Assembly: GCA_945877405.1 (NCBI GenBank)
Contig: CAMCSA010000008.1
Coordinates: forward strand, 1-61,692
Reading direction: 5' to 3'
Origin: an uncultured Erysipelotrichaceae bacterium
Lineage (GTDB): Bacteria; Bacillota_I; Bacilli_A; Erysipelotrichales; Erysipelotrichaceae
Length of the DNA stretch: 61,692 bases
Of the stretch, positions 45,581 through 61,523 are shown piece after piece. Each line of letters opens with the position of its first letter. The first letter of the stretch is position 1. The notes under the pieces are model-generated. The model was not told the origin of the DNA, searched no databases, and saw only the letters and a list, made by a program, of their open reading frames with translations. The translations under genes and the position numbers were made by a program.

Positions 45581-45670
45581 CTGCTGTCTGTTTCTATGTG
45601 CATTAGCCTGATAATCCAAATTTTTCTGATTGATACAGAATCAATACTGCAGATACTGTATGATACTCAT

Positions 45671-46981
45671 ATGAAGATAACAGCCAGTTATTCCGTTGCA
45701 TTCAAAGGCGGATATGATGCCATCAGAAGAACAGTAACAATCTACAATGAATCAGTCAGATATCTGACTGATGTTGTTCAGCAGAATTGGGATGAAATCG
45801 AAAAGATTGACCAGTCAAAACTGCGTATGAACTATGTGGAAAGACTTGTTCATAACACAAAAGACAATCATGCTCTGTATGATTTTGATATTGCATTCCC
45901 AAAGTATCCTACGTATTTCAGAAGAAGTGCGATTATGACAGCTATCGGTATTGTGTCTGCCTATATGAGTGCGATTGACAATTGGGTGGCTGGTGAATGC
46001 AAAGGTGCTATGCCAAAGATAGATACAGCTGTTCATCAGATGCCATGCTTTTATCATGGTAACTGCTTCAGAAACATGACAGACGATACAGCTGAAATCA
46101 AGGTGTTCCGCAACAATGACTGGGTATGGCAGACAATCCGTCTGAACCATTCTGATCTGAAGGATCTGAAGAAAAAAGCACCTGTTGATAAATGGTCTGC
46201 TCCATCGCTTGTCAAAAAGCATAGTGGCTATGAACTCAGATTCACTGTCAAAAAGAAGGTTGTTTTATCTTCAAAACCAGTATTTGAGCAGAAAGTGTGT
46301 GCTGTTGATCTTGGCATTACAACAGATGCAACGTGCAGTGTTATTGATGTACATGGAACTGTCCTGTCACGGAAGTTCATCAACTGTGGCAGAGAAAAAG
46401 ACTCTGTATACAATGCACTGCATCGTGTATCTGACTTCCAGAAAGAACATGGTTCTCATGATTCTGGAAGACTGTGGAACATTGCCAAAAGAAGAAACCT
46501 CAATCTTGCTCATATGATTGCACATCGGATTGTTGATTATGCAATCGCCAATGACTGTGATGTGATCGTCATGGAACACCTGGATACAAAAGGCAAAAAA
46601 CGTGGATCTAAGCGTCAGAAACTGACGATGTGGAAACATGCCGATATCCAGAATACAGTCGAATCACTTGCTCATCAGTATGGAATTAGAGTATCCCGTG
46701 TATGTGCATGGAATACAAGCAGACTTGCATATGATGGAAGTGGTATGGTTAACCGTGGCAGGTATGTATCTGAAACAACACCATATGATATGTGTAAATT
46801 TCAAAGTGGAAAGATGTATAACTGTGATCTTTCTGCAAGCTATAACATCGGTGCACGGTACTTCATCCGTGAACTGATTAAAGAAGTACCCGGTATTATG
46901 ACAGAAGCCTCTGGTATCGGGAGTGGAACTACGAGGACTTTGTCGACATTGTGGCATATTAACTCTGCTATGTCGATCTAG
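45671..46981 (+). CDS. tnpB: RNA-guided endonuclease TnpB (IS605 OrfB)
   Basis: A 436-residue TnpB, the RuvC-type nuclease ancestral to Cas12, guided by an RNA made from the element's right end. The RuvC triad is complete: D213 (AVDLGITTDATC), E302 (VIVMEHLDTKGKK) and D386 (NCDLSASYNIGARYF). The usual four-cysteine zinc ribbon is altered: CAWNTSRLAYDGSG, a long spacer, then MCKFQSGKMYNC, leaving three cysteines. This form recurs in a firmicute TnpB subgroup as I recall it. The ATG at 45671 matches the family start; no clear Shine-Dalgarno is seen. Confidence 0.9.
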   Translation: MKITASYSVAFKGGYDAIRRTVTIYNESVRYLTDVVQQNWDEIEKIDQSKLRMNYVERLVHNTKDNHALYDFDIAFPKYPTYFRRSAIMTAIGIVSAYMSAIDNWVAGECKGAMPKIDTAVHQMPCFYHGNCFRNMTDDTAEIKVFRNNDWVWQTIRLNHSDLKDLKKKAPVDKWSAPSLVKKHSGYELRFTVKKKVVLSSKPVFEQKVCAVDLGITTDATCSVIDVHGTVLSRKFINCGREKDSVYNALHRVSDFQKEHGSHDSGRLWNIAKRRNLNLAHMIAHRIVDYAIANDCDVIVMEHLDTKGKKRGSKRQKLTMWKHADIQNTVESLAHQYGIRVSRVCAWNTSRLAYDGSGMVNRGRYVSETTPYDMCKFQSGKMYNCDLSASYNIGARYFIRELIKEVPGIMTEASGIGSGTTRTLSTLWHINSAMSI

Positions 46982-47158
46982 TCTGGCATAAGTCTGTACA
47001 TGTTAATACGGATGGGTTAGGCAGTGCGTGCACTTGCTGTAACTGTGCCGATATTGTATCAATGGCAGACGGAAGTCCGGACGACCACAAACGTCTGGAA
47101 GCCCCACCTATAATTACAATTTAGGTGGGGTGGTTCACAGAGAAACGGAAGAATTAGA
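46982..47158 (+). ncRNA. Putative TnpB guide RNA (omega RNA) and guide
   Basis: The region after the tnpB stop is GC-rich and fold-prone, with GTGCACTTGC and GTCCGGAC-type hairpins, and ends in the right-end hairpin and TGGTTCAC at 47138. In studied elements the scaffold is this region and the guide is the roughly 16-20 bases that follow. Here the guide would begin AGAGAAACGGAAG, inside the gene fragment at 47142. Extent is inferred. Confidence 0.55.
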
Positions 47159-47436: not shown

Positions 47437-48288
47437 ATGAGTGATAAGACAAAGATGACAGGTAAGGTATTATCCGCAATGGTTGGAGTGTTAGTGGCAG
47501 TACTTGCTATTACGGCTTCTACTTTTGCGTGGTATTTCTATAATATTAACGGACATACGACAAAAGTCAGAATGGCTGCAGGGTCTGGCACATCCATCCA
47601 GATTGCCAACGCGATTGATGGGCCATATGCATCCTCTGTACAGATGGATGATTTCAATGATTATCTCAATCCTGTCAGTACGGATCAGATTCGAAATGGA
47701 TTTCAGAAAGTAACCGGGTTTGAAGATGATGGAGAAAACATCTGGGCAAGATATTTCTCTACAGCTGACCATGTGGACTACTGTATCCGTACACTGTATC
47801 TGAAAGCCAATGCATCTGAAGATGTGGATGTATATGTATCTGATATTACGGGTGTCAACAGAGATGACAGTAATCCTTTATCATCTGCCATCCGTGTCGG
47901 ATTTGCTGTATATGATGGGGATGAAATCGGAAATGAATTCATATTCGCCATTGATGATCAGGAAAACCCTCAGGGACACTTCAATACATATACCGATCTG
48001 GATTATGAAAACAATACGGATATCGTTCTGGATTCCACAAAACAGGATGGATCAACCGTATATTTCAAGCCATATGATGCAGGCAGTTATGTCAGCTATG
48101 ATGAGGATCTTGGAACAGTCACACTCAAACAGAATTCTCAGGTCATCTGTACATTAAAAGGGGATGGCACCCCTGTCAGAATTGATGTGTATTTCTGGCT
48201 GGAAGGTTGTGATCCTGACTGTTATGGAAATCTGGCTGGACAGTCGTTAGACAGAATGGCGTTAAGCTTTGCGGGGTACATCAAATGA
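47437..48288 (+). CDS. SipW-signal-peptide surface protein, TasA/camelysin-like (1)
   Basis: A 283-residue exported protein, first of the operon. The signal peptide has the SipW-type form: basic start, hydrophobic core, then AITASTFAWYFYN around the cleavage site (about residues 24-36). The mature part is predicted beta-rich and contains two motifs shared by its paralogues: YLNPVSTDQI near residue 70, and VYFWLEGCDPDC near the C-terminus. The GGAG Shine-Dalgarno is well placed. It overlaps the next gene by four bases. Assembly into fibres is inferred from the TasA/CalY precedent. Confidence 0.82.
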   Translation: MSDKTKMTGKVLSAMVGVLVAVLAITASTFAWYFYNINGHTTKVRMAAGSGTSIQIANAIDGPYASSVQMDDFNDYLNPVSTDQIRNGFQKVTGFEDDGENIWARYFSTADHVDYCIRTLYLKANASEDVDVYVSDITGVNRDDSNPLSSAIRVGFAVYDGDEIGNEFIFAIDDQENPQGHFNTYTDLDYENNTDIVLDSTKQDGSTVYFKPYDAGSYVSYDEDLGTVTLKQNSQVICTLKGDGTPVRIDVYFWLEGCDPDCYGNLAGQSLDRMALSFAGYIK

Positions 48289-49079
48289 ACAGGGACAGAC
48301 TGATGCTTGAGTTTTATCTGACATTGATTGGTATTGTATTTGTTCTGCTTGTTCTGAGTGGCTCTACCTTTGCATGGTTTACCCAGACTGCATTTACCAA
48401 TACGGAATTATACAGTGCCAGTGTAGATGGTGGTACATCATCCATTCTGATCAGCTTACAGCAGGATGGAGAATTTGATAAGGAATGCGAATTGATTCCG
48501 GACAATCATCCGGATGCACTGTATCCGGTCTCTACTGCAGATCTGAATACATTTTATCAGGGCAGTGCAGTCAAAGCAGATGGCATCACATATCGATATA
48601 CAGCTGCAGATACGCAAAACAGAATCATCCAGGGAAGGGTGTATCTGAAAAGCATCAATGGCAGCAATGATGTGTATTTTGATGATGAAAAGTTCAGGGT
48701 TTCCATGGTGGATGGAATGGATGCCGGCTTACGGCTTGGACTGATCATCAATGAACAGACATATATCTTCAATCTGGATACGGGTAATGAAGAAGGCAGA
48801 GTGACAATTGAGAGGGAAGAAGACTCAGTTGTATCCGATATTGATGAGCAGGGGAATCCTGTCTATACAGCTGATCCATGCCTGGATGTGGCACTTTATC
48901 AGGCAGATGGAGAAAATGCAGGTACACATGCTCTTGCCAGGATTGAAGAAGATGAGATTGTACAGGTAGACTACTATGTCTATCTGGAAGGATGCGATCG
49001 TAACTGCATCAATCAGATTCAGAATCAGGATCTGACGATTACATTAGGTTTTCAGGGGGTAGAAGTCAATGCAGAATAA
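48285..49079 (+). CDS. SipW-signal-peptide surface protein, TasA/camelysin-like (2)
   Basis: A 264-residue paralogue. The signal segment LTLIGIVFVLLVLSGSTFAWFTQ has the SipW-type AWF around the cleavage site. The mature domain has LYPVSTADLNTFY and, near the end, YVYLEGCDRNC followed by a beta strand (LTITLGFQGV). Overall identity to its neighbours is low, but the order of motifs is constant, suggesting distinct subunits of one structure rather than recent copies. It overlaps the next gene by 11 bases. Confidence 0.82.
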   Translation: MNRDRLMLEFYLTLIGIVFVLLVLSGSTFAWFTQTAFTNTELYSASVDGGTSSILISLQQDGEFDKECELIPDNHPDALYPVSTADLNTFYQGSAVKADGITYRYTAADTQNRIIQGRVYLKSINGSNDVYFDDEKFRVSMVDGMDAGLRLGLIINEQTYIFNLDTGNEEGRVTIEREEDSVVSDIDEQGNPVYTADPCLDVALYQADGENAGTHALARIEEDEIVQVDYYVYLEGCDRNCINQIQNQDLTITLGFQGVEVNAE

Positions 49080-49902
49080 AAAATATGTTTTATCCCTTGG
49101 TTATATGGCAGTTATGATGGTTGTGATTGTCAGTGTGGCCCTTGTTTCGACCTATGCCTGGTTTACATCCAATCAGAACGTATCTACCACAACAGTCAAC
49201 GCAACAACAGGAACGGATGAAATCCGTCTGCTGTTAGGTGCAACGCAGAATTCTCTGAGTGAAGATCCATGTGTGATCACACAGGATAACATGAATGAGG
49301 GAATTGTGTTATATCCTGTATCTAGTGCGGATCTTGTTACCTTTACCGCAATGGAAGGTACGCAAACCAACACGCGATATAGAAAGATCACAGATCAGGA
49401 TCAGTATTATTACCATGGCGTATTCTATCTGAAGGCAGAAGGCAATGAAGAACGGGAAGTAACCCTGTACCTGGATCAAAGGGATAACAGAATTGTTGAA
49501 GCAGTGGGAGAAACGGAAGTGCTCAATGCTTCCAGATTCGGTTTATTAATCAATGGTCAGGGAAGCATCATCACCATCAGTGATGAAGTCAATGCCGATG
49601 AGGATCGGATTGAAAATACAGTTGTCAATGGGGAAGTGGTAACAGGAGAAAAAGTCATTACACTGGATGAAAACGGGAATCCGGAAGCAGTTGCTTTAAC
49701 ACCATTGTATTTACATGATGCATGTATCCGCAATGATGGGGATACTGCCATCTATCCGGATTACATGTATACCATTACAACAAATACGGTCTATACATGT
49801 GATGTGTATTTCTATCTGGAAGGTACGGATCAGGACTGTTCTGATGCGGTATCCTTTGAGCAGCTGGATCTTTCGATTTCACTGCTGGGGGTAGTCGGAT
49901 GA
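49069..49902 (+). CDS. SipW-signal-peptide surface protein, TasA/camelysin-like (3)
   Basis: A 277-residue paralogue with signal MAVMMVVIVSVALVSTYAWFTSN. The mature part contains LYPVSSADLVTF and the C-terminal VYFYLEGTDQDCSDAV. An acidic insert (residues about 170-215, DEVNADEDRIEN and GEKVITLDENGNPEAV) has no counterpart in paralogue 4. Starts inside gene 2 and overlaps gene 4 by four bases, so all four are translated as a coupled set. Confidence 0.82.
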   Translation: MQNKKYVLSLGYMAVMMVVIVSVALVSTYAWFTSNQNVSTTTVNATTGTDEIRLLLGATQNSLSEDPCVITQDNMNEGIVLYPVSSADLVTFTAMEGTQTNTRYRKITDQDQYYYHGVFYLKAEGNEEREVTLYLDQRDNRIVEAVGETEVLNASRFGLLINGQGSIITISDEVNADEDRIENTVVNGEVVTGEKVITLDENGNPEAVALTPLYLHDACIRNDGDTAIYPDYMYTITTNTVYTCDVYFYLEGTDQDCSDAVSFEQLDLSISLLGVVG

Positions 49903-50666
49903 AAGAAGAATACAGAAATACAGTCAGAAGAACAGTACTTCTGTTGTTGATTGCTTTTGTCGGGATTGTCGGTATTTCCTTTGCATGGTTTACACTGGCA
50001 GATTTCACAAAGGTTTCCACAATGAAACTGGATATTACAAACGGTTCCAACCTGCGGTTTGATGTTGTGGCACATGATGATATCGAAGACTACTATAAGA
50101 CATTGAGTGTGGAAAGAATCCGTGATTATGTGCTTGGAGATCATGGATATGATCTGACAACAACACCATTACAGCCCGTTACTACTGCAGATTGTGTGAC
50201 ATATACATTCGAAGATGGGGAAGTGGCTGGAGTCAATACAGGTGTCTATGTCCAGTTTCCATTACATTTTATGGCAGCTAAGGACATGTATGTACATCTG
50301 ACAACTGCAAATTCACCTGGTAATACCGATGGTACGCAGATCACATCAGATGATGCAAGGCTGACAAATGCATTGCGGATCTGCTTTACGGTAAACGGAA
50401 ACAACTATATTTATTCTCCTGGTATGGGGGAAGGAGCAACGCAGACGGCTATTGGCAAAGTGTTTGGCCTCAATGATGCGGATACCATGGTCTATTCCGA
50501 CAACAACAGTCTGTTTTTCATTCCTGCCTTTACCGATCAGCAGGTCGATGTAAAAATCTGGCTGGAAGGTACGGATGAAGGGTGTGTGGATGATATAAAA
50601 AAGCTGAATTTTACAATGAAATTCCGATTTGCCGGTACAGATGAGGATAATGTATTGGTTGAATAG
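49899..50666 (+). CDS. SipW-signal-peptide surface protein, TasA/camelysin-like (4)
   Basis: A 255-residue paralogue with signal RRTVLLLLIAFVGIVGISFAWFT. The mature part has LQPVTTADCVTYTF and the C-terminal VKIWLEGTDEGCVDDI. A 63-base gap separates it from the first SipW peptidase gene, the longest gap within the operon. Confidence 0.82.
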   Translation: MKEEYRNTVRRTVLLLLIAFVGIVGISFAWFTLADFTKVSTMKLDITNGSNLRFDVVAHDDIEDYYKTLSVERIRDYVLGDHGYDLTTTPLQPVTTADCVTYTFEDGEVAGVNTGVYVQFPLHFMAAKDMYVHLTTANSPGNTDGTQITSDDARLTNALRICFTVNGNNYIYSPGMGEGATQTAIGKVFGLNDADTMVYSDNNSLFFIPAFTDQQVDVKIWLEGTDEGCVDDIKKLNFTMKFRFAGTDEDNVLVE

Positions 50667-50729
50667 CATCTATATGCTAAAATTACACAATAGATAGAAG
50701 TATATTTCGGGAAGAATCAGGGGGAAATC

Positions 50730-51428
50730 ATGGAAAAACTCAAAAAAATCGGACTTACTGTCCTCAGTATATGCTTATGGGGTGTCATTCTGATCGCCGC
50801 TTTATTTGCATTTACAACATTGGCAACAAAGGATACGAATTCAGTTGCTTCAATTGCAGGATTTACACCATTAACAGTTGCAACAGAGTCAATGGAACCA
50901 ACGTTCGGTACCAGTGATCTGATCATCATTCAAAAGTGTGATCCTGCTGATCTGAAGGAAGGGGATATCATCACCTTCCATACCATCATCAACAACGAAT
51001 ACGCTCTGAATACCCATAGAATCGTGGATATCGAAGAAAACAACGGATATCGTTCCTATCGTACAAAGGGTGACAACAACCAGATTGAAGATACACATGT
51101 CATCGCTGATGGCGATATTGTTGGCAAGTATGTACTGAAGCTTGCTGGAGTAGGTGCATTGATGACATTCCTTTCTTCCTCAACAGGATTCCTGGTTGTC
51201 ATCATCCTGCCATTGCTGATCTTCTTTGTCATGCAGGTATATCATCTGATCATGGTTGTCATCAAGCTCAAAAAGGCAACCGCAGAAGAAATGGCAAGTG
51301 AAAATGATGCATCCCTGGATGAAGCATTAAAGGCAAAGCAGGAAGCGGAAGCAGCTTTAGCTGAAGCAAGAAGACTGAAAGAAGAAGCTGAAGCTTTAAA
51401 GAAGGCTGCAGAAGAAAACAAGGAGTGA
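50730..51428 (+). CDS. sipW: SipW-type signal peptidase I (1), with coiled-coil tail
   Basis: A 232-residue signal peptidase of the ER/archaeal type, which uses a serine-histidine pair in place of the serine-lysine pair of ordinary bacterial enzymes. The serine is in VATESMEPTF, the histidine in LNTHRIVDIEE and the acidic residue in TKGDNNQIED. One N-terminal and two adjacent C-terminal membrane helices flank the catalytic domain. The last 50 residues form an Ala/Glu/Lys coiled coil (KAKQEAEAALAEARRLKEEAEA), unusual for the family. GGGGGA precedes the ATG. Its likely substrates are the SipW-signal proteins around it. Confidence 0.9.
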   Translation: MEKLKKIGLTVLSICLWGVILIAALFAFTTLATKDTNSVASIAGFTPLTVATESMEPTFGTSDLIIIQKCDPADLKEGDIITFHTIINNEYALNTHRIVDIEENNGYRSYRTKGDNNQIEDTHVIADGDIVGKYVLKLAGVGALMTFLSSSTGFLVVIILPLLIFFVMQVYHLIMVVIKLKKATAEEMASENDASLDEALKAKQEAEAALAEARRLKEEAEALKKAAEENKE

Positions 51429-51432
51429 AACT

Positions 51433-53136
51433 GTGAGTGAATTTCTGAATCTGGCATTTGAGCTGATATCACAGATTATCTATTATCTGAGTGAATGGGT
51501 AGTAGGTTTTTTCACCGGATTTCTGAGAATCTTTGTGACGGGTGTTCCGGTATATATTACGATCTTTGCATCCTACTTTCCTTCTTTAAATCTGTTTTCC
51601 AAAGTACTTGCAGTACTGCTGGCGTTAATTCTGATTGCCATTCCGGTATTACTGCTTGTTATCATCATTCGAAAACTCATTCTGTATATCCGCCTCAAGG
51701 ATACAAAGGAAGATAATGTCGAGCTGTATAAGGAAATCGGAAGACTGAACAGACAGGTATTGAACCTGATGGATGAAAAGAACAAGATTCTTGCCTTAAA
51801 GGTCAATAATACAGGTCTGAACCGTGTATCCTATGTAGGTTCCAGTGGACTCATGGATGATGTACCTGCTTCTGCGATTGCTGGTGGGAATGTAGCTGGC
51901 GCAGCAGAAGGAGGCAGTGTTGAAGGTGGTGTCATTGCAGGAAATGCAAATGTCGGCTTCAACATGAATGAAGATTCCATGGCAAATCTGGCTGGTGGAA
52001 TGGCTGCAGCACAGGTAGCTGCAAAAAGACAGAGCGAGGAAGAAGAAAAGAAGCAGGCAGTCAGATTTCCGAAACTCGATCTTGTTGATCGTAAATACAT
52101 GCATTACGTTGAACCGAAGTTTGACGATGAAATCACACTGGAACAGTTCTGCGAAGGTTATCGTGCCTTTGCCTGTTCGCAGCTGCATTTATATTACACA
52201 ATGGAAATCGTACGTCGATTTGTTGCTGGTATGGCATCCAGCCATATTATGATTCTGGAAGGTATTTCCGGTACAGGTAAAACATCTTTACCATATTCCT
52301 TCTCAAGATATCTCGATAACCCGGCTACCATTGTTTCCGTTCAGCCAAACTTCCGTGATCGTACGGAGCTGCTTGGTTATTTCAACGAATTCTCAAAGCG
52401 TTTTAATGAAACCGAATTCTTAAGAGCTTTATATGAAGCTAACTATCGGGAAGAGCCATGTATCATCGTATTAGACGAAATGAACCTGGCCCGTATTGAA
52501 TACTACTTTGCGGAAATGCTTTCCATTCTGGAAATGCCATCTGTAGATGAGTGGATTATTGACCTTGTTCCAACAGCATGGGAAGGGGATCCGATCAAGC
52601 TTGTCGATGGTAAGATCCATATCAATCCGAATATCTGGTTTGTCGGTACAGCCAACAACGATGACTCCACATTTACGATTACCGATAAGGTATACGATAG
52701 AGCCATGCCGATTGAGCTGAACGAAAGAGCTGCTGCATTTGAAATTGCAGATCAGCCTGCTGTTCATGTCACTGCAGCCCATCTGCATCAGATGTTCAAG
52801 GAAGCACAGGAAAAGTATCCATTGACCGATGCCATGCAGGAAAAGCTGAACAAGCTTGACTCCTACCTGCAGACAAGATTCAAGCTTGCGATCGGTAACC
52901 GTATCATCAAGCAGATGAATGACTTCGTACCTGTTTATGTAGCGACAGGTGGTACGGAACTGGATGCGATTGACTATATCATTTCACGTAAGGTACTCAA
53001 GAAGTTTGAATCTTTGAACCTTTCCTTTGTACGTGATGAAATCAAGGGACTGATTGCCTATATCGAAAAGATTTTCGGTAAGAGCGGTATGAAGGATTCC
53101 AAAGATTATCTGACAAGAATTCAGAATCTGTATTAA
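51433..53136 (+). CDS. Membrane-anchored McrB-like AAA+ ATPase
   Basis: A 567-residue protein. The N-terminus has two to three membrane helices (about residues 12-85), then a short coiled coil (VELYKEIGRLNRQVLNLMDEKNKILAL) and a Gly/Ala-rich linker. The C-terminal AAA+ domain is of the McrB/MoxR kind: Walker A GISGTGKTSL (277-286), Walker B IIVLDEMNLARIEYYFAEM (Asp348-Glu349), sensor 1 GTANNDDSTFTI and arginine finger YDRAMPIEL. GTG start, with AAGGAG overlapping the sipW stop. No restriction endonuclease partner is present; the next gene encodes a DUF2357 protein. Its role in a surface-fibre operon is unexplained. Confidence 0.85.
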   Translation: MSEFLNLAFELISQIIYYLSEWVVGFFTGFLRIFVTGVPVYITIFASYFPSLNLFSKVLAVLLALILIAIPVLLLVIIIRKLILYIRLKDTKEDNVELYKEIGRLNRQVLNLMDEKNKILALKVNNTGLNRVSYVGSSGLMDDVPASAIAGGNVAGAAEGGSVEGGVIAGNANVGFNMNEDSMANLAGGMAAAQVAAKRQSEEEEKKQAVRFPKLDLVDRKYMHYVEPKFDDEITLEQFCEGYRAFACSQLHLYYTMEIVRRFVAGMASSHIMILEGISGTGKTSLPYSFSRYLDNPATIVSVQPNFRDRTELLGYFNEFSKRFNETEFLRALYEANYREEPCIIVLDEMNLARIEYYFAEMLSILEMPSVDEWIIDLVPTAWEGDPIKLVDGKIHINPNIWFVGTANNDDSTFTITDKVYDRAMPIELNERAAAFEIADQPAVHVTAAHLHQMFKEAQEKYPLTDAMQEKLNKLDSYLQTRFKLAIGNRIIKQMNDFVPVYVATGGTELDAIDYIISRKVLKKFESLNLSFVRDEIKGLIAYIEKIFGKSGMKDSKDYLTRIQNLY

Positions 53137-53142
53137 TACTAT

Positions 53143-55158
53143 ATGGCCAATACACTTAATGATCTATATCTGAAATATACCAACAAGGTTGTTTCAAGCC
53201 TGGAAAAAGACAGATACTTTCAGTATATGTTTGAAATGCTGTCGGCGGGGGACAACCGTTTTCAGCATTCTTCTCAGGTCATGCATAAGCAGATCGATGA
53301 AAAATGGCTGAGTATGATTGAGGATTCACTCGATTCCATCAATAACATCATTGAAAAACCAAGACGATTCATCACAACAAAAGAAGAAGTCGTTCCGGTA
53401 TCGTTAGCCAAAAAGATCACAGCAGACTCTGTACGTCATCTCTCACAGAATACGCAGTTTATTGCGGCTAGTGAAGATGGAGATGTACATCCGACTAGAA
53501 TTCTCAATGTGACTGTTGATGAAACCTATGATCTTTATGAAAACAGGTTCATCTATCATCTGATTCAGCGTCTTGTCACATTCATTGATAAGCGTACGGA
53601 TGTACTGTTCTGGTCAACTGGTGATGAAAAGCGCAATGTCATGACCATGGAATCCAAGATTGAGGATGGTTATGAAGAAATCGAGTATAAACTCGAAATG
53701 AAGATCAAAAACAGACAGTCATTTGCGGAAAATGAATCCGATAATATGGCTCTGTTTATGAGAATTGACCGCGTCAGAAGAAGAGTCATGGCTTTAAAGA
53801 CTTCATCTTTCTGTTCCATCATGGCAGGATGTGCAAAGGTCAGAAGCCCGATTCAGCGTACAAACCTCATTATGAAAGATCCGGACTACCGTAATTGTTA
53901 TAAGTTATGGCAGTTTATTGAATCCTATGATGAAGTCGGTTATTCCATTGATATCCGGAATACGAACATTGAATATGATGAAGATTATCTGACAAACATG
54001 TACATCAATCTCATTACAAACTATGTCGTATTCAAATCACTTCTGGAGATGGATAAACGGGATGTGCTGAGTGAAACATTAAAGAAACACAAAGTACTCA
54101 AACCGAAGTTTGTCAAAGTCATCAATGAAGAAGAAGTCAAAGCAGAAGACTTTGATCTTGAGGATGTGGAAGTCCGTCAGGTCATTGTAGAAGAAGTCAC
54201 AAAGGCCCAACTGGAATTACAGAAGAAGTTTGATGAGCTGAATGCAAAATTACAGGATGTAGCTGCACAGCGTGATGAAATGGGATCCCGGCTTGAAACA
54301 CTTGGGTATCAGTTGGAAACACAGCTGGAAGATAGCGAAAGAAAACTGAAAGAGCAGAAAGCAAAGCTTGTGGAAGCTCATAAGCTTAAGGAAGAAAAGC
54401 TGAATGTGCTAAGGCAGGAAGCACTCGATCAGGTAAATGATCTGATGGCTAAGCTTACACAGGCACAGGAAAGTGCTGCAGCAGTTCATCAGGAAAACGA
54501 AAATCTGGCAAGAATCAATGCAACACTGACTGCTGAAAAGCAGGCTGATACAGATAGAAGGCAGAAACTGGAAGAAAAGCTTGCGGAATTGCAGGAAACT
54601 TCACAGCAATTACAGCAGAACAATGCAGCTCTTTCCACTTTGGCAAAACAAAGTCAGGAAGAAATGCAGCAGGCACTTGCTGATAAGGATGCAGCTGTCA
54701 AGCAATGCCAGGAAGCAGTCGATCAGGCAAAAACAGATCGGATGTTACGTGAGGCTGCAGAGTTGAACTTACGTGCACAGATCACAGCAAGGCAGGACGA
54801 AGAAACAAAGAATCTCAAAGCAGAACAGCTCAATGCACAGCTGCAGGAAACCATCAATGCCAAAGATGATGAGATGACTGCATTACGCAGGAAGATCGAA
54901 CAGCTGACAAGTGAAAAATATGCATTGAGTGAAAAACTGGATCGGGAAAAGAAACAGCGAAAAGAAAGTGATGCGAAGGTTCGAGAACTCAGTGCCAGTG
55001 TGAAAAAGAGTGATGCTTTGAATACAAAGCTCAATGATGAACTTGAAGTGGAAAGAAAGAAGAGACTGAAAGCGGAAAAGAAGGCAGAAGGTACTGTTCT
55101 TTCCAGATACATCATCGCAAAACTCAATGGATCAGCCAATGAAGAAAACAATTCTTAA
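53143..55158 (+). CDS. DUF2357-like protein with long coiled coil
   Basis: A 671-residue cytoplasmic protein. The first 320 residues resemble DUF2357 proteins, which act beside McrB-type ATPases: TRILNVTVDETYDLYENRFIYHLIQRL is the telling stretch, and KDPDYRNCYKLWQFIESYD-like sequence follows. Residues about 350-655 form one long Gln/Glu/Lys coiled coil. The C-terminal nuclease domain found in many DUF2357 or McrC-like proteins is absent. There is little Shine-Dalgarno before the ATG at 53143, so translation may be coupled to the ATPase six bases upstream. Confidence 0.75.
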   Translation: MANTLNDLYLKYTNKVVSSLEKDRYFQYMFEMLSAGDNRFQHSSQVMHKQIDEKWLSMIEDSLDSINNIIEKPRRFITTKEEVVPVSLAKKITADSVRHLSQNTQFIAASEDGDVHPTRILNVTVDETYDLYENRFIYHLIQRLVTFIDKRTDVLFWSTGDEKRNVMTMESKIEDGYEEIEYKLEMKIKNRQSFAENESDNMALFMRIDRVRRRVMALKTSSFCSIMAGCAKVRSPIQRTNLIMKDPDYRNCYKLWQFIESYDEVGYSIDIRNTNIEYDEDYLTNMYINLITNYVVFKSLLEMDKRDVLSETLKKHKVLKPKFVKVINEEEVKAEDFDLEDVEVRQVIVEEVTKAQLELQKKFDELNAKLQDVAAQRDEMGSRLETLGYQLETQLEDSERKLKEQKAKLVEAHKLKEEKLNVLRQEALDQVNDLMAKLTQAQESAAAVHQENENLARINATLTAEKQADTDRRQKLEEKLAELQETSQQLQQNNAALSTLAKQSQEEMQQALADKDAAVKQCQEAVDQAKTDRMLREAAELNLRAQITARQDEETKNLKAEQLNAQLQETINAKDDEMTALRRKIEQLTSEKYALSEKLDREKKQRKESDAKVRELSASVKKSDALNTKLNDELEVERKKRLKAEKKAEGTVLSRYIIAKLNGSANEENNS

Positions 55159-55699
55159 GATCATCAATGCCATCTCTGTGGTAATTATCTGTGTGGCATT
55201 ATATGCCATGATCAAGGTCGTATTTACTCCAGGTGGTATGGCACCGGAATTTCTCGGGTATTCTGTATTCAGAATCTCATCCGGATCCATGGAGCCGACC
55301 ATTAAAGTGGATTCCCTTGTTGTTGTAAAACAGATTGAACCACAGGATGTACAGGTTGATGATGTGATTACATTCTATTCCGATGATCCTGTATTACAGG
55401 GATTTCCAAATACCCATCGTGTCAAGGAAATCATTGATGAGGATGGGCATCTGTATTATGTGACACAGGGGGATGCCAATCCGATTGTGGATGCTTACAA
55501 GGCAGATTCCAGTAAGTTAATCGGTGTAGTGATCTATCAATCGCCACTCCTTGGTAAGGCAATGCGATTATTATCCAATCCACTGATCTTTATTCCTGTG
55601 ATTGCCTTACCGTTAGTGTATATTCTGATTTCATCCATAGTCGATACGATCAGAATCGCAGGAAAGATATCCGAAGAAGAGGACAACAGTGATGTTTGA
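55139..55699 (+). CDS. sipW: SipW-type signal peptidase I (2)
   Basis: A 186-residue ER-type signal peptidase: catalytic serine in SSGSMEPTIKVDS, histidine in PNTHRVKEIIDEDG and acidic residue in TQGDANPIVD. One N-terminal helix and two C-terminal helices, with no coiled-coil tail, unlike peptidase 1. The ATG at 55139 lies inside the coiled-coil gene by 20 bases; an ATG four codons earlier is possible. Two SipW enzymes in one operon suggest different substrates, which is inference. Confidence 0.88.
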   Translation: MKKTILKIINAISVVIICVALYAMIKVVFTPGGMAPEFLGYSVFRISSGSMEPTIKVDSLVVVKQIEPQDVQVDDVITFYSDDPVLQGFPNTHRVKEIIDEDGHLYYVTQGDANPIVDAYKADSSKLIGVVIYQSPLLGKAMRLLSNPLIFIPVIALPLVYILISSIVDTIRIAGKISEEEDNSDV

Positions 55700-57617
55700 T
55701 TTCAGATTTGATATTGCTGCACTGGTGATCAGTCTCATCAGTTATGCAATCATTACAATGAAGAGAAACTATCTGACACGTGAATCACGTGTCTTTGTTG
55801 CCTGCATTGTACTCAACATGATTTCAGCCGTATGCAATATCATATCGACAATCGCTGTCGCCTATAACTCAGCTGCACTTGTATCCTTTGCTTTTTTGGC
55901 CAAGTTTATTCATTTTATCCTGATCTTTCTGATGACGGCAGGCTTCTATACAGCCTCCTTGATCCGGGTGAAGGAAAAAGGGTTAGGAAAGATCGATCAG
56001 ATCATACTGATCGCATATCTTGGGATCAATGTCGTATTGTTATGTACTTCATTTTTTACAAAGTTCTATTTCTACTTTGACGGGGAGTATCGGTTACGGA
56101 CAAGTTTCCTGTACTATCTTGCTGTGTTACTGCATATAGTCATGATGGTATATACCGGTATTCTGATCGCAAAAAAGGAAAAGGAAGAAGATAGTGCAAC
56201 AGCAGTATATGTTGTTGTTGCAATGGCAATCTATGTCACTTTGACTCTGGTCAATGCCTTTGTCAAAGGAAGCAATGTATATCACTTTGCAGTAGCAGTG
56301 CTGTTTCTGTGTGTGCATGTCATCCTCAACAATCCGGAAGATTATGTGGCTGCCTATTACAGCTGTTTCAATGATGTGGCATATAAGGATTCTCTGATTT
56401 ATCATCAGAACCGGAATAAGCAGTTACATTCCATCGGCATCAGCTGTGGAGAAATGGATTTTCTCAAATCCACATATTCAGACCTTGAAATCATGACTGC
56501 TTTAAAGCCGTTTACCGAATTTGCAAGGGCAAGATTTGGTGCCTATAACTTCTATGTCATCGGCACAAGCCAGTTTGTTGTACAGGTCAAAGGAAACAAT
56601 TCCCTGATTGAATCCACAATGTCTGAAATCAGGAATTACTTCATGGAACCCATCAGCATTGGTGGTGTGGAATTTGTCATTTCACCACTATTTGCGGTTG
56701 TGGAAGATCGGGAAAAGTTTGACTCAGTGGATTCCTACTTTGAAGTATTGAGTTACTGTATGAACCATACGGAACTGTTTGCCGCAAAGCAGGTATTACG
56801 TGTTACAAGTCAGCATATCACATTTGTCAACCAGGAGCAGGAAATGGTACTGGCAGTCACAAGAGCAATCAAAAATGATGGTGTGCTTATATATTACCAG
56901 CCGATTTATTCCGCTGAGACTGGTGGTTATCCGACCAGTGAAGCACTGGTACGAATCAAAGATGAAAAGCTTGGATTCATTTCTCCTGCTGACTTCATTC
57001 CGATTCTGGAAAGAAACGGAATGATTGTTGAATTAGGAGAACTGATTCTGAAACGTGTTTGTGAAGACTATCAGAAATATGAATTTCCTAAGCTTGGGAT
57101 TGAACGGGTGGAAGTCAATCTTTCCGGAAGGCAGTTAGTCGTTCCGGGGATTTATAAAAAGCTGTTAGGTATTATCAAAGAAAACCAGGTGCCAAAGGAT
57201 GCAATTCTGTTTGAAATTACTGAATCCTATACAAAGGAGTCTGCCCAGGCTTATATCCTGGAAAACATCAAAGGAATAACAGATAACGGCATCAAGCTTG
57301 CCTTAGATGACTTTGGTACAGGTTATTCCACAATGATCAATCTGATCCGCTTACCATTTGAAATCATCAAGATTGATAAATCACTATTGGATAATGCGAT
57401 GGCAGATCTGAAATCCATGGTATTATTGAAAAATAATGTAAACATGCTCAAGGAACTCAAGAAAAAGATTGTTGTTGAAGGTGTTGAAACAAGTGAAGAA
57501 GCAAAGATGCTGAAGAACTTAGGTGTTCACTACTTCCAGGGTTATCTTTACAGTAAGCCTGTCAGTGTAGAAGAATATGTCAGTTTCCTCAAACCAAAGG
57601 AAAGGAGTGCGAAGTAA
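55692..57617 (+). CDS. Membrane EAL-domain c-di-GMP phosphodiesterase, degenerate GGDEF
   Basis: A 641-residue protein. About seven membrane helices (residues 5-215) precede a degenerate GGDEF domain, where the signature reads GTSQF (FYVIGTSQFVVQVKG), so cyclase activity is not expected. The EAL domain (about 390-635) looks active: E417 of SEALVRI, Asn in VNLSGRQL, Glu in FEITES, DDFGTGYST, IKIDKSLLD, VVEGVETSEEA and Gln in YFQGYLYSKP are all present. It would hydrolyse cyclic-di-GMP. I prefer the ATG at 55692 (AGAGGA upstream) over GTG at 55689. It shares one base with the PilZ gene. Confidence 0.93.
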   Translation: MFDFRFDIAALVISLISYAIITMKRNYLTRESRVFVACIVLNMISAVCNIISTIAVAYNSAALVSFAFLAKFIHFILIFLMTAGFYTASLIRVKEKGLGKIDQIILIAYLGINVVLLCTSFFTKFYFYFDGEYRLRTSFLYYLAVLLHIVMMVYTGILIAKKEKEEDSATAVYVVVAMAIYVTLTLVNAFVKGSNVYHFAVAVLFLCVHVILNNPEDYVAAYYSCFNDVAYKDSLIYHQNRNKQLHSIGISCGEMDFLKSTYSDLEIMTALKPFTEFARARFGAYNFYVIGTSQFVVQVKGNNSLIESTMSEIRNYFMEPISIGGVEFVISPLFAVVEDREKFDSVDSYFEVLSYCMNHTELFAAKQVLRVTSQHITFVNQEQEMVLAVTRAIKNDGVLIYYQPIYSAETGGYPTSEALVRIKDEKLGFISPADFIPILERNGMIVELGELILKRVCEDYQKYEFPKLGIERVEVNLSGRQLVVPGIYKKLLGIIKENQVPKDAILFEITESYTKESAQAYILENIKGITDNGIKLALDDFGTGYSTMINLIRLPFEIIKIDKSLLDNAMADLKSMVLLKNNVNMLKELKKKIVVEGVETSEEAKMLKNLGVHYFQGYLYSKPVSVEEYVSFLKPKERSAK

Positions 57618-58291
57618 TGGCAGAACTGAAAATCAAATCCGGTACAAAAATGAAAATGGCCTTTAACAGTGATACACCGGAATTCAATTTTGTAACTACA
57701 TTCAATAAGGCTCTGGATGAATCTGCCTTCCTTGTATCCATTCCTTTAAAAGATGGCAAGGCGTTAACCGTTGCGGATGATCAGAAGCTGTTATTCAAAT
57801 ATGGGGCTGATCAGGACGAGGCAGTCATTGCAGGGTATGTCGATGATATTGTTAAACAGGGTATCAAACGATACTGGAAAATTCGCAGAGTTACGGAAAT
57901 GCGTAACTTTGTACAACGTAGAGATGAACGTATTGATCTAACCTTACCAATCAAATACCTTGATCCGATCTGGAAACCAAACAGTGATGGTGTGATTGAA
58001 AAAGAAGAAGGCACAACACTGAATATTTCTGCCGGTGGTCTTGCGATCAACATCAACTATCACTTTGATGTTGGAGAAGCCATTGAAATTGATCTTCCAA
58101 ATGTTGGCTCAGCAATTGATGGCATTGGCCCTAAGGCAATTACATCCATTATCTGCTGGACAAGAGAAGCTCCGAAGGGTTCGCTTTACAGGCATGTGGC
58201 AGGTGTGCAGTTCCGCTTTGGTGATGATGGAAGCCAAAGAGAAACAATGCAGAACTATGTTGCCTTTGCGAAAAAGAAATACAAGTTATGA
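57617..58291 (+). CDS. PilZ domain c-di-GMP receptor
   Basis: A 224-residue protein of the YcgR-like layout: an N-terminal beta-barrel flagellar-brake-like domain (1-95) and a PilZ domain (97-220). The ligand motif RxxxR appears in QRRDERIDLTLP (R101, R102, R105). The second motif reads NISAGG (136-141), with Asn for the usual Asp of DxSxxG. It should bind cyclic-di-GMP. Its place between the EAL gene and a membrane protein with a long cytosolic tail suggests that it passes the signal to the export machine. It overlaps both neighbours. Confidence 0.88.
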   Translation: MAELKIKSGTKMKMAFNSDTPEFNFVTTFNKALDESAFLVSIPLKDGKALTVADDQKLLFKYGADQDEAVIAGYVDDIVKQGIKRYWKIRRVTEMRNFVQRRDERIDLTLPIKYLDPIWKPNSDGVIEKEEGTTLNISAGGLAININYHFDVGEAIEIDLPNVGSAIDGIGPKAITSIICWTREAPKGSLYRHVAGVQFRFGDDGSQRETMQNYVAFAKKKYKL

Positions 58292-59442
58292 AAAAACTGT
58301 TTACGAAAAAAGAAAAACAGCAGGTACAGGATATTCCGGATCATCTGGAACAGGAAGTCAGTGAGAAACCTGAAAAGAAAAAGAAGTTCAGTTTCAAGCT
58401 GAAAGAAAAAGAGAAAAAAGAAAAGATCCGGTTTAAAAAGGCAATTGTACGATCAGAAGAGATCTCAAAGGCAGGCGCTAAAGAAGATGAACTGGATGAT
58501 AAGATTGTCTCCTCCTATGTCCCATACCGTAGAGCAAAGAGACTTGGTCGATCTTTATTACGACTGGATAAACTTTCCATCTGGTTTTTATCTTTGACAT
58601 TAATTGTAACCATCATCTTCATCTTCTCCTTCATGCAGGAAAAGATGGGCAACTTTACAATCAACCTGAACCGACTGGAACTGTATCGTAAGGGCATTAC
58701 CATTTCTGCTGACTCGGTATTTACAAATCCGACCGCAAGATTGACTGCGAATGCGATCTCAGATGCCACAAACATCTCAGCAAATGACCTGCCAGAGAAT
58801 ATCAATGATATTGATGGTGACCATAATGGGAAAAACTATGTGGCATATACATACTATATCCGTAATGCAGGAAAAGAAGATGTGCAGTATTCTGCAGTGG
58901 TAAACCTGGATTCCTATTCCAAGAATGCAGATGAAGCAGCAAGAGTCATTGTATACCACAATGATGAAAAGACGGTGTATGCCAAAAAGGCTGCCGATGG
59001 TAATCCGGAACCTGGTACAACACCATTTGTATCAGCAAACATCGTATGTGAATATTACAATGATGAATTCCTTGTAGGTAACGTCGATAAATATACGATT
59101 GTCATCTTCTTAGAAGGGGATGACCCTGAGTGTGTGGATGCGATTATTGGTGGATCACTGGAATTCTCCATGAATATCTCAGCAGATGATGAATCTGAAA
59201 CATCGTTATTTGTTAAGTGGGTACAGGATATCATTGATACAATTACTGATAATGATTCCATTGGTACAGCAGGTACGGATGCACCTGACTTCTATATCCA
59301 GAACAAGGATATCACCTATGAAAACAGAAGAAACGGTCCAAATAACATCTATGAGGATAACAGAACTCCTACAGATAACTCCTCACAGATCAAGGAAAGC
59401 TTCGGTCAGTTAGGGGATAAAGTAAAGGAAGACGTAGAATAA
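58288..59442 (+). CDS. Type II membrane protein with TasA-like outer domain
   Basis: A 384-residue protein. Residues 1-about 98 are a very basic cytosolic tail (EKKEKIRFKKAIVR and many KKKK-like runs). One membrane helix (about 98-118, LSIWFLSLTLIVTIIFIFSF) follows. The outer domain carries the family motif YTIVIFLEGDDPECVDAI but no SipW cleavage site, so it should stay anchored. It could nucleate or hold the fibre formed by the cleaved paralogues and receive the PilZ signal through its tail; both are inference. Last gene of the operon. Confidence 0.8.
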   Translation: MKKLFTKKEKQQVQDIPDHLEQEVSEKPEKKKKFSFKLKEKEKKEKIRFKKAIVRSEEISKAGAKEDELDDKIVSSYVPYRRAKRLGRSLLRLDKLSIWFLSLTLIVTIIFIFSFMQEKMGNFTINLNRLELYRKGITISADSVFTNPTARLTANAISDATNISANDLPENINDIDGDHNGKNYVAYTYYIRNAGKEDVQYSAVVNLDSYSKNADEAARVIVYHNDEKTVYAKKAADGNPEPGTTPFVSANIVCEYYNDEFLVGNVDKYTIVIFLEGDDPECVDAIIGGSLEFSMNISADDESETSLFVKWVQDIIDTITDNDSIGTAGTDAPDFYIQNKDITYENRRNGPNNIYEDNRTPTDNSSQIKESFGQLGDKVKEDVE

Positions 59443-59754
59443 ATACACATATGTAACCATATAGATGTGTCTATGGAAGTTACCTATGAAAAAATGCACA
59501 GGAAATACTTAAAATACTAGCTAAACCTATTGTAAAAACAGGTAAATTCATATAAGATTTCTTTGTAGAAAAGCAAAACTAGCGCAAGCTAGTGACGCAA
59601 AGCTAGAGGGGCTCTACGAGTCAGCCAGTTGCTAAAGGTTCTATAGTTGCCTTTGGTATTTATTTTATTGGCAGGCTTGGATAGAAAGATTGGATCAGAT
59701 CTTTCTACCTGTGAGTCGTTGATCATTTCTTAATATGACTAAGGGGGAAAAACA
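59443..59754 (+). promoter_or_regulatory. Control region before the camelysin-like pair
   Basis: This 312-base gap holds a candidate promoter (TTGTAA 59530-59535, TAAGAT 59553-59558, 17-base spacing), the cyclic-di-GMP riboswitch at 59572-59633, a hairpin AAAGG/CCTTT (59635-59655) followed by a T-rich run, and a 9-bp perfect stem TAGAAAGAT/ATCTTTCTA (59682-59707). It ends in the Shine-Dalgarno AAGGGGG. No obvious terminator for the preceding operon is seen. Confidence 0.6.
59572..59633 (+). promoter_or_regulatory. Cyclic-di-GMP class I riboswitch (GEMM-I)
   Basis: The sequence matches the GEMM-I consensus closely. P1 is AGCAA/TTGCT. P2 is ACTAGC-GCAA-GCTAGT with a GNRA tetraloop. GTGACGCAAAGCTAGAGGG is the conserved linker and 5' side of P3, and GTCAGCCAGTTGCT supplies the 3' side. 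The conserved GACGCAAAGC and CAGCCAG blocks are present. It lies 122 bases before a SipW-signal surface protein gene. Whether binding switches expression on or off cannot be told from the platform that follows. Confidence 0.93.
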
Positions 59755-60552
59755 ATGTCAGTAAAAACATTAAGAAAACAATTGTTTGCGGCAATCGCCA
59801 TGGTACTGGTTGCCGCTATTGCACTGGGCAGCTCCACCTACGCATGGTTTGCAAACAACAACACTGTTAAAGCAGACGGGATGAAAATCAATGCGAAAGC
59901 AGAAGGCACCATGCTTGTAATTTCCAACACTGTAGAAGGATTAAACGATAAAAAAACATCTTACACTTTTGATCCGGTTGTAAAAGGAGAAAACTTATAT
60001 CCTGTTCATCCTATTTATACAAGTGTATCAGGAAATGATGTTACTGCTTGGAATCATGCGTATTCCGACAAATTTGATACAGCAATAAGCAACAGTACAG
60101 AAACCGCCGTAAGCACAGATGATTTGAATGCGGGAAAATATTATGTAACTACAGACCTGTATATTGGTTTGGATAATACTCACAATGCAGCTTCTGTTGG
60201 AGCCATTACTGTTACAGGCGTTACTTTAACAAGTTCAGGAAATACCTTGTTAAATTCTGCTCGTGTGCTGATGGTTGATAAAGACGGCAAAGTTATTGGC
60301 TGTTTTGGCAACGGAACTTGTTTAAGTGAAAAAGGAACTGATTATGCAGTGGATACTCCAGCAACAGCCGATACCATGACTGAGCTTTCACCAGCCAATA
60401 CAGGAACTGTTATTGGCGGGTTAACTGCAGGTCAAAATGTAAAAGTAACATTATTTATTTATTTTGATGGTCGTGATAGTTCTTGCACAAGCCAGAATTT
60501 CAAAGCTGATGAAGTAACTTGCTCTTTAGAATTTACTGCTGCAGATGCTTAA
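59755..60552 (+). CDS. Camelysin/TasA-like SipW-signal surface protein (5)
   Basis: A 265-residue exported protein under the cyclic-di-GMP riboswitch. Its signal MSVKTLRKQLFAAIAMVLVA to SSTYAWFANNN is the clearest SipW-type signal in the locus. The mature domain has YPVHPIYTS and the C-terminal IYFDGRDSSC. It is rich in Thr, Ser, Asn and Gly, without the acidic inserts of the operon paralogues. A strong riboswitch leader and AAGGGGG Shine-Dalgarno suggest it is the major, abundant subunit; that is inference. The following hairpin at 60609 separates it from the next gene. Confidence 0.87.
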   Translation: MSVKTLRKQLFAAIAMVLVAAIALGSSTYAWFANNNTVKADGMKINAKAEGTMLVISNTVEGLNDKKTSYTFDPVVKGENLYPVHPIYTSVSGNDVTAWNHAYSDKFDTAISNSTETAVSTDDLNAGKYYVTTDLYIGLDNTHNAASVGAITVTGVTLTSSGNTLLNSARVLMVDKDGKVIGCFGNGTCLSEKGTDYAVDTPATADTMTELSPANTGTVIGGLTAGQNVKVTLFIYFDGRDSSCTSQNFKADEVTCSLEFTAADA

Positions 60553-60608
60553 ATCAAATATTTGTAGGAAGTATTATCAGTTCAAATAATTTCAAAATAG
60601 TCTAAAGT

Positions 60609-60642
60609 ATTTGCCTAGAGTTCGTTAAACATCTAGGCAAAT
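60609..60642 (+). terminator. Strong hairpin, probable terminator
   Basis: ATTTGCCTAGA (60609-60619) pairs perfectly with TCTAGGCAAAT (60632-60642). The T-run after it is weak (ATGACTATCTTAGTTT), so it may instead protect the upstream message. Confidence 0.55.
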
Positions 60643-60728
60643 ATGACTATCTTAGTTTAAAAAATGCTTGATATAATCAGATATCAACTATCTTATTCTA
60701 TGAAGTATTTAAAAAGGAGGTTGCATTA

Positions 60729-61523
60729 ATGATTATTAAAACTTTAAGAAAACAATTATATCTGGCAATTATGTCATTAATGATTGTTGTTTTTTGTATT
60801 ACAACAGCAACCTATGCCTGGTTTTCTATGAATAACTCAGTTTCCGCTGATGGAATAGAGATATCTGCTAAAACAGAAGGAATTAATTTTGAAATCACAT
60901 CTAAAGTTGACTCGTTAGGTAATCCAGTCTTTACGGTTGGACAGATTATAGATTCTACAACCATTTCCGCCATAAATCTGTTACCTGTTCATCCTGTAAT
61001 TACCGACAATAGTTTAACAGGTTGGCAACATGCTGTGTCTGATACATATGATGATGCCAAGATTGATGCCTCTAGAAATGATTTATCACTTGTAGCGAAT
61101 CAAATCAAAGATTCCAACAATATATATCAGTATGAAATTTTATATGATGCAAGTGGCAACTATGTTCTTCATGCAACTTATTATCTAAGACTAAATCCAG
61201 ATACTTCAGCTGATGGAAATAGCCTTAATAACATCGTTGCGCAAAATGTAGTATTGACTGGAATAGATTCCTCAAAGGATTATTCAAAATGTACAAGATT
61301 AGTTGTTGAAGGTCCTGATGGAACATATGAAATTGGTCCCGAAGGTTCCACAGGCGAGGGAAGTATCAAAACATCCGGTACATTAATAACAAAGATTGAA
61401 AAAGGTAACGATTATAGTATTGATGTATATGCATTCTTCGAAGGAATGGATGAAAACTGTAAGAGTAGTTCATTTATCCCTGTGGATTTAGGTATAAGCG
61501 TAGATTTTGCAGAGGGTTCATAA
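60729..61523 (+). CDS. Camelysin/TasA-like SipW-signal surface protein (6)
   Basis: A 264-residue close relative of protein 5: signal IIKTLRKQLYLAIMSLMIVV to TTATYAWFSMNN, then NLLPVHPVITDNS and the C-terminal VYAFFEGMDENCKSS. Base composition is visibly more AT-rich than in the main operon, which may mean different origin or expression. AAGGAGG precedes the ATG. A candidate -10 (GATATAATC) near 60670 suggests its own promoter. No riboswitch consensus is seen ahead of it. Confidence 0.87.
   Translation: MIIKTLRKQLYLAIMSLMIVVFCITTATYAWFSMNNSVSADGIEISAKTEGINFEITSKVDSLGNPVFTVGQIIDSTTISAINLLPVHPVITDNSLTGWQHAVSDTYDDAKIDASRNDLSLVANQIKDSNNIYQYEILYDASGNYVLHATYYLRLNPDTSADGNSLNNIVAQNVVLTGIDSSKDYSKCTRLVVEGPDGTYEIGPEGSTGEGSIKTSGTLITKIEKGNDYSIDVYAFFEGMDENCKSSSFIPVDLGISVDFAEGS

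Follow-up and report, generated by a model that had tools for sequence, protein, structure and literature searches.

A conserved gene cluster proposed to encode a c-di-GMP-controlled TasA/SipW-class fiber system with a membrane NTPase of McrBC ancestry

We analyzed a window of 61,692 nucleotides (contig CAMCSA010000008.1 of assembly GCA_945877405.1, from an uncultured Erysipelotrichaceae bacterium) that carries a cluster of 13 genes. These encode seven pilin-like paralogues (S1 to S7), two SipW-type signal peptidases (SipW1 and SipW2), an McrB-like AAA+ NTPase (here AAA), an McrC-like DUF2357 protein, an EAL phosphodiesterase, and a PilZ receptor for cyclic-di-GMP (c-di-GMP). We think it rather likely that the cluster specifies a c-di-GMP-controlled fiber-biogenesis system that belongs to the TasA/SipW class and has a dedicated membrane NTPase related by descent to McrBC. 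The parts, their linkage, the gene fusions, the motifs, and the riboswitch architecture are established at the level of sequence, and structure models of two S proteins support, with moderate scores, a pilin-like fold. We are highly confident that the genes of the cluster form one system. That its product is a fiber is probable, and that the AAA protein directly gates or drives assembly is only slightly favored.

Linkage of signal peptidases with the AAA/DUF2357 pair

Relatives were collected with the AAA protein alone, one genome per species, yielding 80 loci. These spanned the Lachnospiraceae, the Oscillospiraceae, and unclassified Clostridia, including Blautia sp. MSJ-19, Eubacterium ruminantium, and Ruminococcus albus 8. 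Among the 73 loci with enough contig, a DUF2357 gene followed the AAA gene in all 73 and a SipW gene preceded it in 72; flags raised by the adjacency script at L014, L022, L024, and L027 were over-extended AAA starts, and L010 was the one true exception. In type A loci, as in the window, the gene order was S1-S2-S3-S4-SipW1-AAA-DUF2357-SipW2, with PilZ-S5 located after this core, before it in some loci, or outside the available stretch in others. In type B loci (Ruminococcus and Eubacterium), the order was EAL-like-S5-SipW1-AAA-DUF2357-SipW2. Gene order was conserved across Lachnospiraceae and Oscillospiraceae, and since the identical order recurs in dozens of species, chance is excluded. In an independent class-wide draw of 80 genomes, a related AAA was detected in 22. 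The same core (AAA with DUF2357, SipW, or S5) was present in 15 of the 20 regions compared, two of which overlapped in one genome; in another two, a signal peptidase gene was followed by an AAA gene, and one of these also encoded SipW-like exported proteins.

Gene fusions provided further evidence of a shared function. Six of 76 DUF2357 proteins (L055, L059, L065, L075, L079, and L080) were DUF2357-coiled-coil-SipW fusions, in which the coiled coil continues straight into a complete SipW domain (E values from 1e-61 to 1e-75) that retains the catalytic TGSM[ED]P motif. The carriers include Ruminococcus albus 8, an isolate genome. The fusion of these genes in six relatives speaks strongly for joint action of the DUF2357 protein and the signal peptidase at the membrane. 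In the genome containing the window, only two SipW-type peptidases scored above cut-off, and both lie in the cluster. An initial reading made from the sequence alone (the sequence-only reading) had proposed a single conserved system; the co-occurrence search, which found the AAA/DUF2357 pair linked to SipW in relatives, and the fusions both bear this out.

The AAA protein is McrB-like. In a profile search against solved structures, Escherichia coli McrB was the sole match (E 0.0016). Walker A reads GISGTGKTS in 81 of 81 sequences, and the signature reads GTANNDDST or GTANSDDST, again in 81 of 81. NNDD fits NxD followed by D, as is usual (D or E) in the NxD clade of McrB-like NTPases according to PMC11090510, though it is also readable as NxxD. 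The N terminus contains a hydrophobic helix and a coiled-coil-like stretch, both conserved. PF09823 matched all 17 DUF2357 members tested, and the C-terminal part of the DUF2357 protein is long and of coiled-coil type. Its full-length profile, compared with solved structures, gave matches headed by coiled-coil proteins, while the DUF2357 domain alone gave none. A Pfam search of the DUF2357 protein of the window and of three long relatives detected no nuclease domain. A genome search for the nuclease family PF04411 was silent, but it was also silent in all controls and is therefore uninformative. The present pair resembles McrBC type IV restriction systems in its homologous AAA+ domain and DUF2357 activator, but differs in that no PD-(D/E)xK nuclease was found, the NTPase is membrane anchored, and genes for secretion and pilin-like proteins replace the methyltransferases.

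This half of the system has a name. CoCoPALM is introduced in one paragraph of PMC11090510, the only paper found to name a matching combination, and deferred there to a later paper. As described in that paragraph, it shares with the present system an McrB-like NxD NTPase with an N-terminal transmembrane and coiled-coil part, an McrC-like DUF2357 protein with a coiled coil, and linked signal peptidases. The domain fused to the NTPase is called FtsB-like in that account; the present AAA gave no FtsB/DivIC match by sequence. The present system is a well-supported candidate member of CoCoPALM. The main-text account differs in giving no substrates, SipW/TasA assignment, c-di-GMP genes, riboswitch, or fusion, and the main text mentions neither TasA nor biofilm. 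The one paper found on SipW together with McrB is a functional-metagenomics methods study, as judged by its abstract. The claim of the sequence-only reading that no such system had been described therefore needs amending: the machine half was already named in passing, whereas its fiber-like substrates and c-di-GMP control appear to be undescribed. From the better-known side, tapA-sipW-tasA of Bacillus subtilis, sipW-tasA-calY of Bacillus cereus, and sipW-bsaA of Clostridium perfringens likewise place a SipW-type peptidase beside secreted beta-sandwich proteins of SipW type. However, the number of paralogues is seven here against one to three there, and the present cluster also has two peptidases, a constant membrane-anchored member, c-di-GMP control, and the AAA/DUF2357 machine; no AAA gene appears in those operons as published.

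Other arrangements were observed among the loci collected. At L187 (5288-9882), a signal peptidase gene is followed by an AAA-like gene, with two exported proteins bearing FATW/FSAW sites encoded upstream; this looks like another version of the system. In L175 (7852-19001), from a distant family, a long run of genes for SipW-type exported proteins lies downstream of SipW2 and also holds a third signal peptidase and an open reading frame (ORF) of more than 1150 residues. At L184, AAA-DUF2357-AAA is followed by a 1676-residue ORF resembling a surface protein.

Pilin-like proteins and c-di-GMP inputs

The six secreted paralogues (S1 to S4, S6, and S7) each carry an AW[FY] site of SipW type, in the pattern [ST][FY]AW[FY] after the signal helix. 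All seven, S5 included, have the motif [FL][ED]GxDxxC, in which GxDxxC is invariant. Because they share this motif near the C terminus, S1 to S7 look like one paralogous family. S2 (48285) was the sole window protein to reach the cut-off of the curated SipW-signal model TIGR04088, and the others were assigned to the SipW type by site pattern and C-terminal motif. The site motif was kept in most relatives of S1 to S4 and S6. In the S5 family, the canonical cleavage site was absent from all 47 members but the C-terminal motif was kept in 46; S5 is therefore expected to remain membrane bound, with its tail in the cytoplasm.

Structural comparison was based on AlphaFold models. When the S4 model (predicted local distance difference test [pLDDT] score, 88) was aligned by VIA to the 1000 best Foldseek chains, the top match was the TasA fiber (Z 6.8, root mean square deviation 3.4, 131 aligned), followed by TasA 5of1 (Z 6.3), Sulfolobus threads (6.0), TasA 5of2 (5.8), and then other pilins. 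For S6 (pLDDT 71), VIA matches were FimA (Z 7.5), TasA (6.5), Sulfolobus threads (6.3), and Pyrobaculum bundling pili (6.2). Hence, the best matches of both models recur, at moderate Z, in the class of donor-strand filament subunits, in agreement with the TasA-like character proposed earlier from sequence. The archaeal threads and bundling pili are similar to the modeled proteins in being such subunits but differ in being archaeal, and they are not known to have an McrBC-like machine. Once cleaved by SipW, TasA itself polymerizes by means of an N-terminal donor strand (PMC9674648). The S proteins have predicted mature N termini that start at the same kind of site, and they may polymerize by donor strand as well.

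An unlinked second set on contig C10 of the same genome (L148:5430-11556) comprises three genes for apparent SipW substrates. One product, 1360 residues long, has a GTFAWYY site and matches nothing in Pfam; it is a candidate for a tip adhesin or matrix protein of the machine encoded by the cluster.

The gene directly upstream of S5 encodes a c-di-GMP-domain protein for all 45 S5 genes with room for one: PilZ in 18 and an EAL-like protein in 27. The PilZ proteins kept RxxxR and, nearly always, [DN]xSxxG. Like receptor-type EAL proteins, most of the EAL-like proteins lacked catalytic residues: the EAL glutamate was changed to Q in 23 of 27 and the next asparagine to Y in 24 of 27. A third lineage has EAL-type genes ahead of S5, at least one with a GGDEF-like stretch recognized by eye. 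The occurrence of such various c-di-GMP domains beside one anchored pilin argues for control of the machine through S5, possibly by contact between PilZ and S5. The EAL gene of the window is catalytically complete by comparison of residues and was absent from the other type A loci; it is thus, within the type A loci seen, a lineage-specific addition, and its enzyme would lower c-di-GMP as feedback. With 12 GGDEF matches, the genome has a source of c-di-GMP.

At the RNA level, the RF01051 match ahead of S6 is the sole c-di-GMP-I riboswitch above cut-off in the 2.1 Mb genome. A 10-pair terminator, followed by a U-rich tail, uses the 3' strand of aptamer helix P1 as its 5' arm, an overlap also found in L026, in L044, and in both tandem switches of L118. 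Since c-di-GMP binding would close P1 and block termination, an ON switch is predicted for S6 and S7. These results agree with the c-di-GMP input at both protein and RNA levels that the sequence-only reading had put forward. In a covariance scan of the 80 loci, a clear riboswitch was found only in the window, L044, and L026 (cut by the contig end), with a weak one in L007. In the L033 genome, one more SipW-type gene was preceded by a tandem riboswitch, and the c-di-GMP-I riboswitches of relatives' genomes mostly stand before other genes. Tandem c-di-GMP-I riboswitches at L118:1501-1740, each with its own overlapping terminator, precede a SipW-type gene.

Proposed mechanism and alternatives

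We propose that the seven pilin-like proteins are exported and that SipW1 and SipW2 would cut the six secreted ones between A and WF, so that a freed N-terminal segment could act as donor strand for the next subunit, while S5, keeping its membrane helix and cytoplasmic tail, would serve as base or anchor. The McrB-like AAA+ protein would form an oligomer in the membrane. The DUF2357 protein would stimulate it and, through its coiled coil, tether or gate a SipW peptidase; hydrolysis of nucleoside triphosphate (NTP) would link control in the cytoplasm to processing and assembly. The sensor of c-di-GMP would be PilZ, or in relatives a degenerate EAL or GGDEF/EAL-type protein, which would act on S5 and license it at high c-di-GMP. 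Under the same condition the riboswitch would add transcription of S6 and S7, and the EAL enzyme of the window would provide negative feedback. In its fullest form, the proposal is that an McrBC-type restriction motor was turned into an NTP-driven, c-di-GMP-gated assembler of donor-strand TasA-class fibers, that this assembler is widespread among Clostridia of the gut and rumen, and that its membrane-anchored base pilin is in every case accompanied by a c-di-GMP receptor (PilZ, degenerate EAL, or GGDEF/EAL type); for this combined statement we regard the evidence as evenly poised. If it is true, TasA-class fibers gain a dedicated, energy-using assembly machine, McrBC proteins act in the cell envelope rather than against foreign DNA, and a c-di-GMP-controlled surface-fiber system exists in bacteria that are common in the gut and rumen (Blautia, Ruminococcus albus, and Eubacterium ruminantium). 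Some carriers are cultured, so the proposal is directly testable.

Several results weigh against this proposal. By Foldseek alone, the S4 model had no match with E < 0.001, and the fold matches of S4 and S6, all at Z < 8, can reflect a mere common beta-sandwich. Three of the 20 regions in the class-wide draw (L184, L185, and L186, from more distant families) carried a tandem AAA-DUF2357-AAA with no recognized SipW gene; the AAA/DUF2357 pair thus occurs in other contexts. An active EAL enzyme was rejected as a core component given the degenerate EAL-like proteins of relatives; the sequence-only reading had counted the phosphodiesterase as part of the system, but no other locus of the window type has a complete EAL, and the conserved element is the receptor-type gene before S5. 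Conservation of the riboswitch in all relatives was likewise rejected: its place in the system, also claimed from the sequence, holds for the window, with its terminator, and for some relatives only. Finally, TasA fibers assemble through donor strands with TapA and SipW as the only known helpers (PMC9674648). They form without an AAA motor, so the present motor may do something else.

One such role, which we consider unlikely, is that of a quality-control extractor: AAA/DUF2357 would pull unprocessed or jammed SipW substrates from the membrane, and fibers would assemble without it, as TasA does. AAA+ proteins are often unfoldases, and the SipW-DUF2357 fusion would fit a processing checkpoint equally well; the short list of TasA helpers points the same way. 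However, the co-conservation is invariant, with no degradative protease gene recognized in the operon, and the c-di-GMP-domain gene fixed beside S5 suggests regulation of assembly rather than clean-up. Less probable still, the cluster could be an ordinary TasA-type matrix or spore-coat operon, with S proteins as monomers or coat components and the AAA pair doing some other job at the envelope (for example, membrane or division remodeling). The first description of TasA linked it to the spore coat (PMC9674648), and the FtsB-like N terminus attributed to the CoCoPALM NTPase would suit a division role; no FtsB/DivIC similarity was detected by sequence in the present AAA, though, and seven paralogues of predicted pilin-like fold with one fixed membrane anchor better fit a multi-subunit filament. 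Anti-phage defense of type IV restriction ancestry, with the surface proteins as neighbors or as part of a surface-based defense, is very improbable: the AAA matches the PADLOC candidate-defense model PDC-M26A (139 bits), and McrBC and CoCoNuT relatives are treated in PMC11090510 as restriction or predicted defense systems, but the DUF2357 protein has no detected nuclease domain and the ties to SipW and to S5 with its c-di-GMP-domain neighbor described above speak for another function.

Locus layout and origin

All 13 ORFs were confirmed as the sequence-only reading had described them, as an operon run of 11 (47437-59442) and two followers (59755-60552 and 60729-61523), and so were their families and the riboswitch. 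Domains of the window proteins were assigned by Pfam/NCBIfam profile search. Neighboring genes of the run overlap by 1 to 32 bases or are separated by no more than 63 bases.

Table 1. Genes and RNA elements of the cluster, in window coordinates
Feature	Position	Strand	Evidence
S1, SipW-type secreted pilin-like protein	47437..48288	+	TFAWY site, WLEGCDPDC motif; orthologues in fixed order in ~40 loci
S2, SipW-type secreted pilin-like protein	48285..49079	+	TIGR04088 E 2e-4, above cut-off
S3, SipW-type secreted pilin-like protein	49069..49902	+	Site and C-terminal motif
S4, SipW-type secreted pilin-like protein, TasA-like model	49899..50666	+	AlphaFold and VIA
SipW1, SipW/archaeal-type signal peptidase	50730..51428	+	TIGR02228 E 7e-30
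McrB-like AAA+ NTPase, membrane-anchored, coiled-coil-like stretch	51433..53136	+	AAA_5; McrB structure match
McrC-like DUF2357 protein, long coiled coil, no nuclease domain found	53143..55158	+	PF09823 E 2e-12
SipW2, second SipW/archaeal-type signal peptidase	55127..55699	+	TIGR02228 E 9e-24
Membrane EAL phosphodiesterase, expected catalytic residues present	55689..57617	+	PF00563 E 2e-61
PilZ c-di-GMP receptor	57617..58291	+	PF07238 E 3e-10; RxxxR and NxSxxG present
S5, membrane-anchored pilin-like paralogue, ~95-residue charged cytoplasmic tail, no SipW site	58288..59442	+	
c-di-GMP-I riboswitch aptamer	59562..59636	+	RF01051, 55.7 bits vs gathering score 35
Terminator hairpin (59630-59658) and U-rich tail	59630..59669	+	5' arm overlaps 3' strand of aptamer P1
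S6, SipW-type secreted pilin-like protein behind riboswitch	59755..60552	+	Model resembles FimA, TasA, archaeal threads
S7, SipW-type secreted pilin-like protein, follows S6	60729..61523	+	Site and C-terminal motif

The gene set was probably acquired horizontally. A full-length match was absent from 35 same-genus genomes, one of which had a distant partial match only, and from six other genera of the family (one genome each); the closest homologues, ~65% identical, were in metagenome-assembled genomes of Clostridia. Guanine-plus-cytosine content is even across the window. A comparison of synteny for an empty site in a same-genus genome found a ptb-like gene as the sole match and no usable empty site. 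Upstream of the operon, an ORF at 45596-46981 encodes a TnpB/OrfB-like transposase with weak OrfB_IS605 and Cas12f1-like matches. It is followed at ~47000-47150 by a hairpin-rich stretch ending in GGTGGGGTGGTTCAC, and together the two may mark the insertion of the operon.

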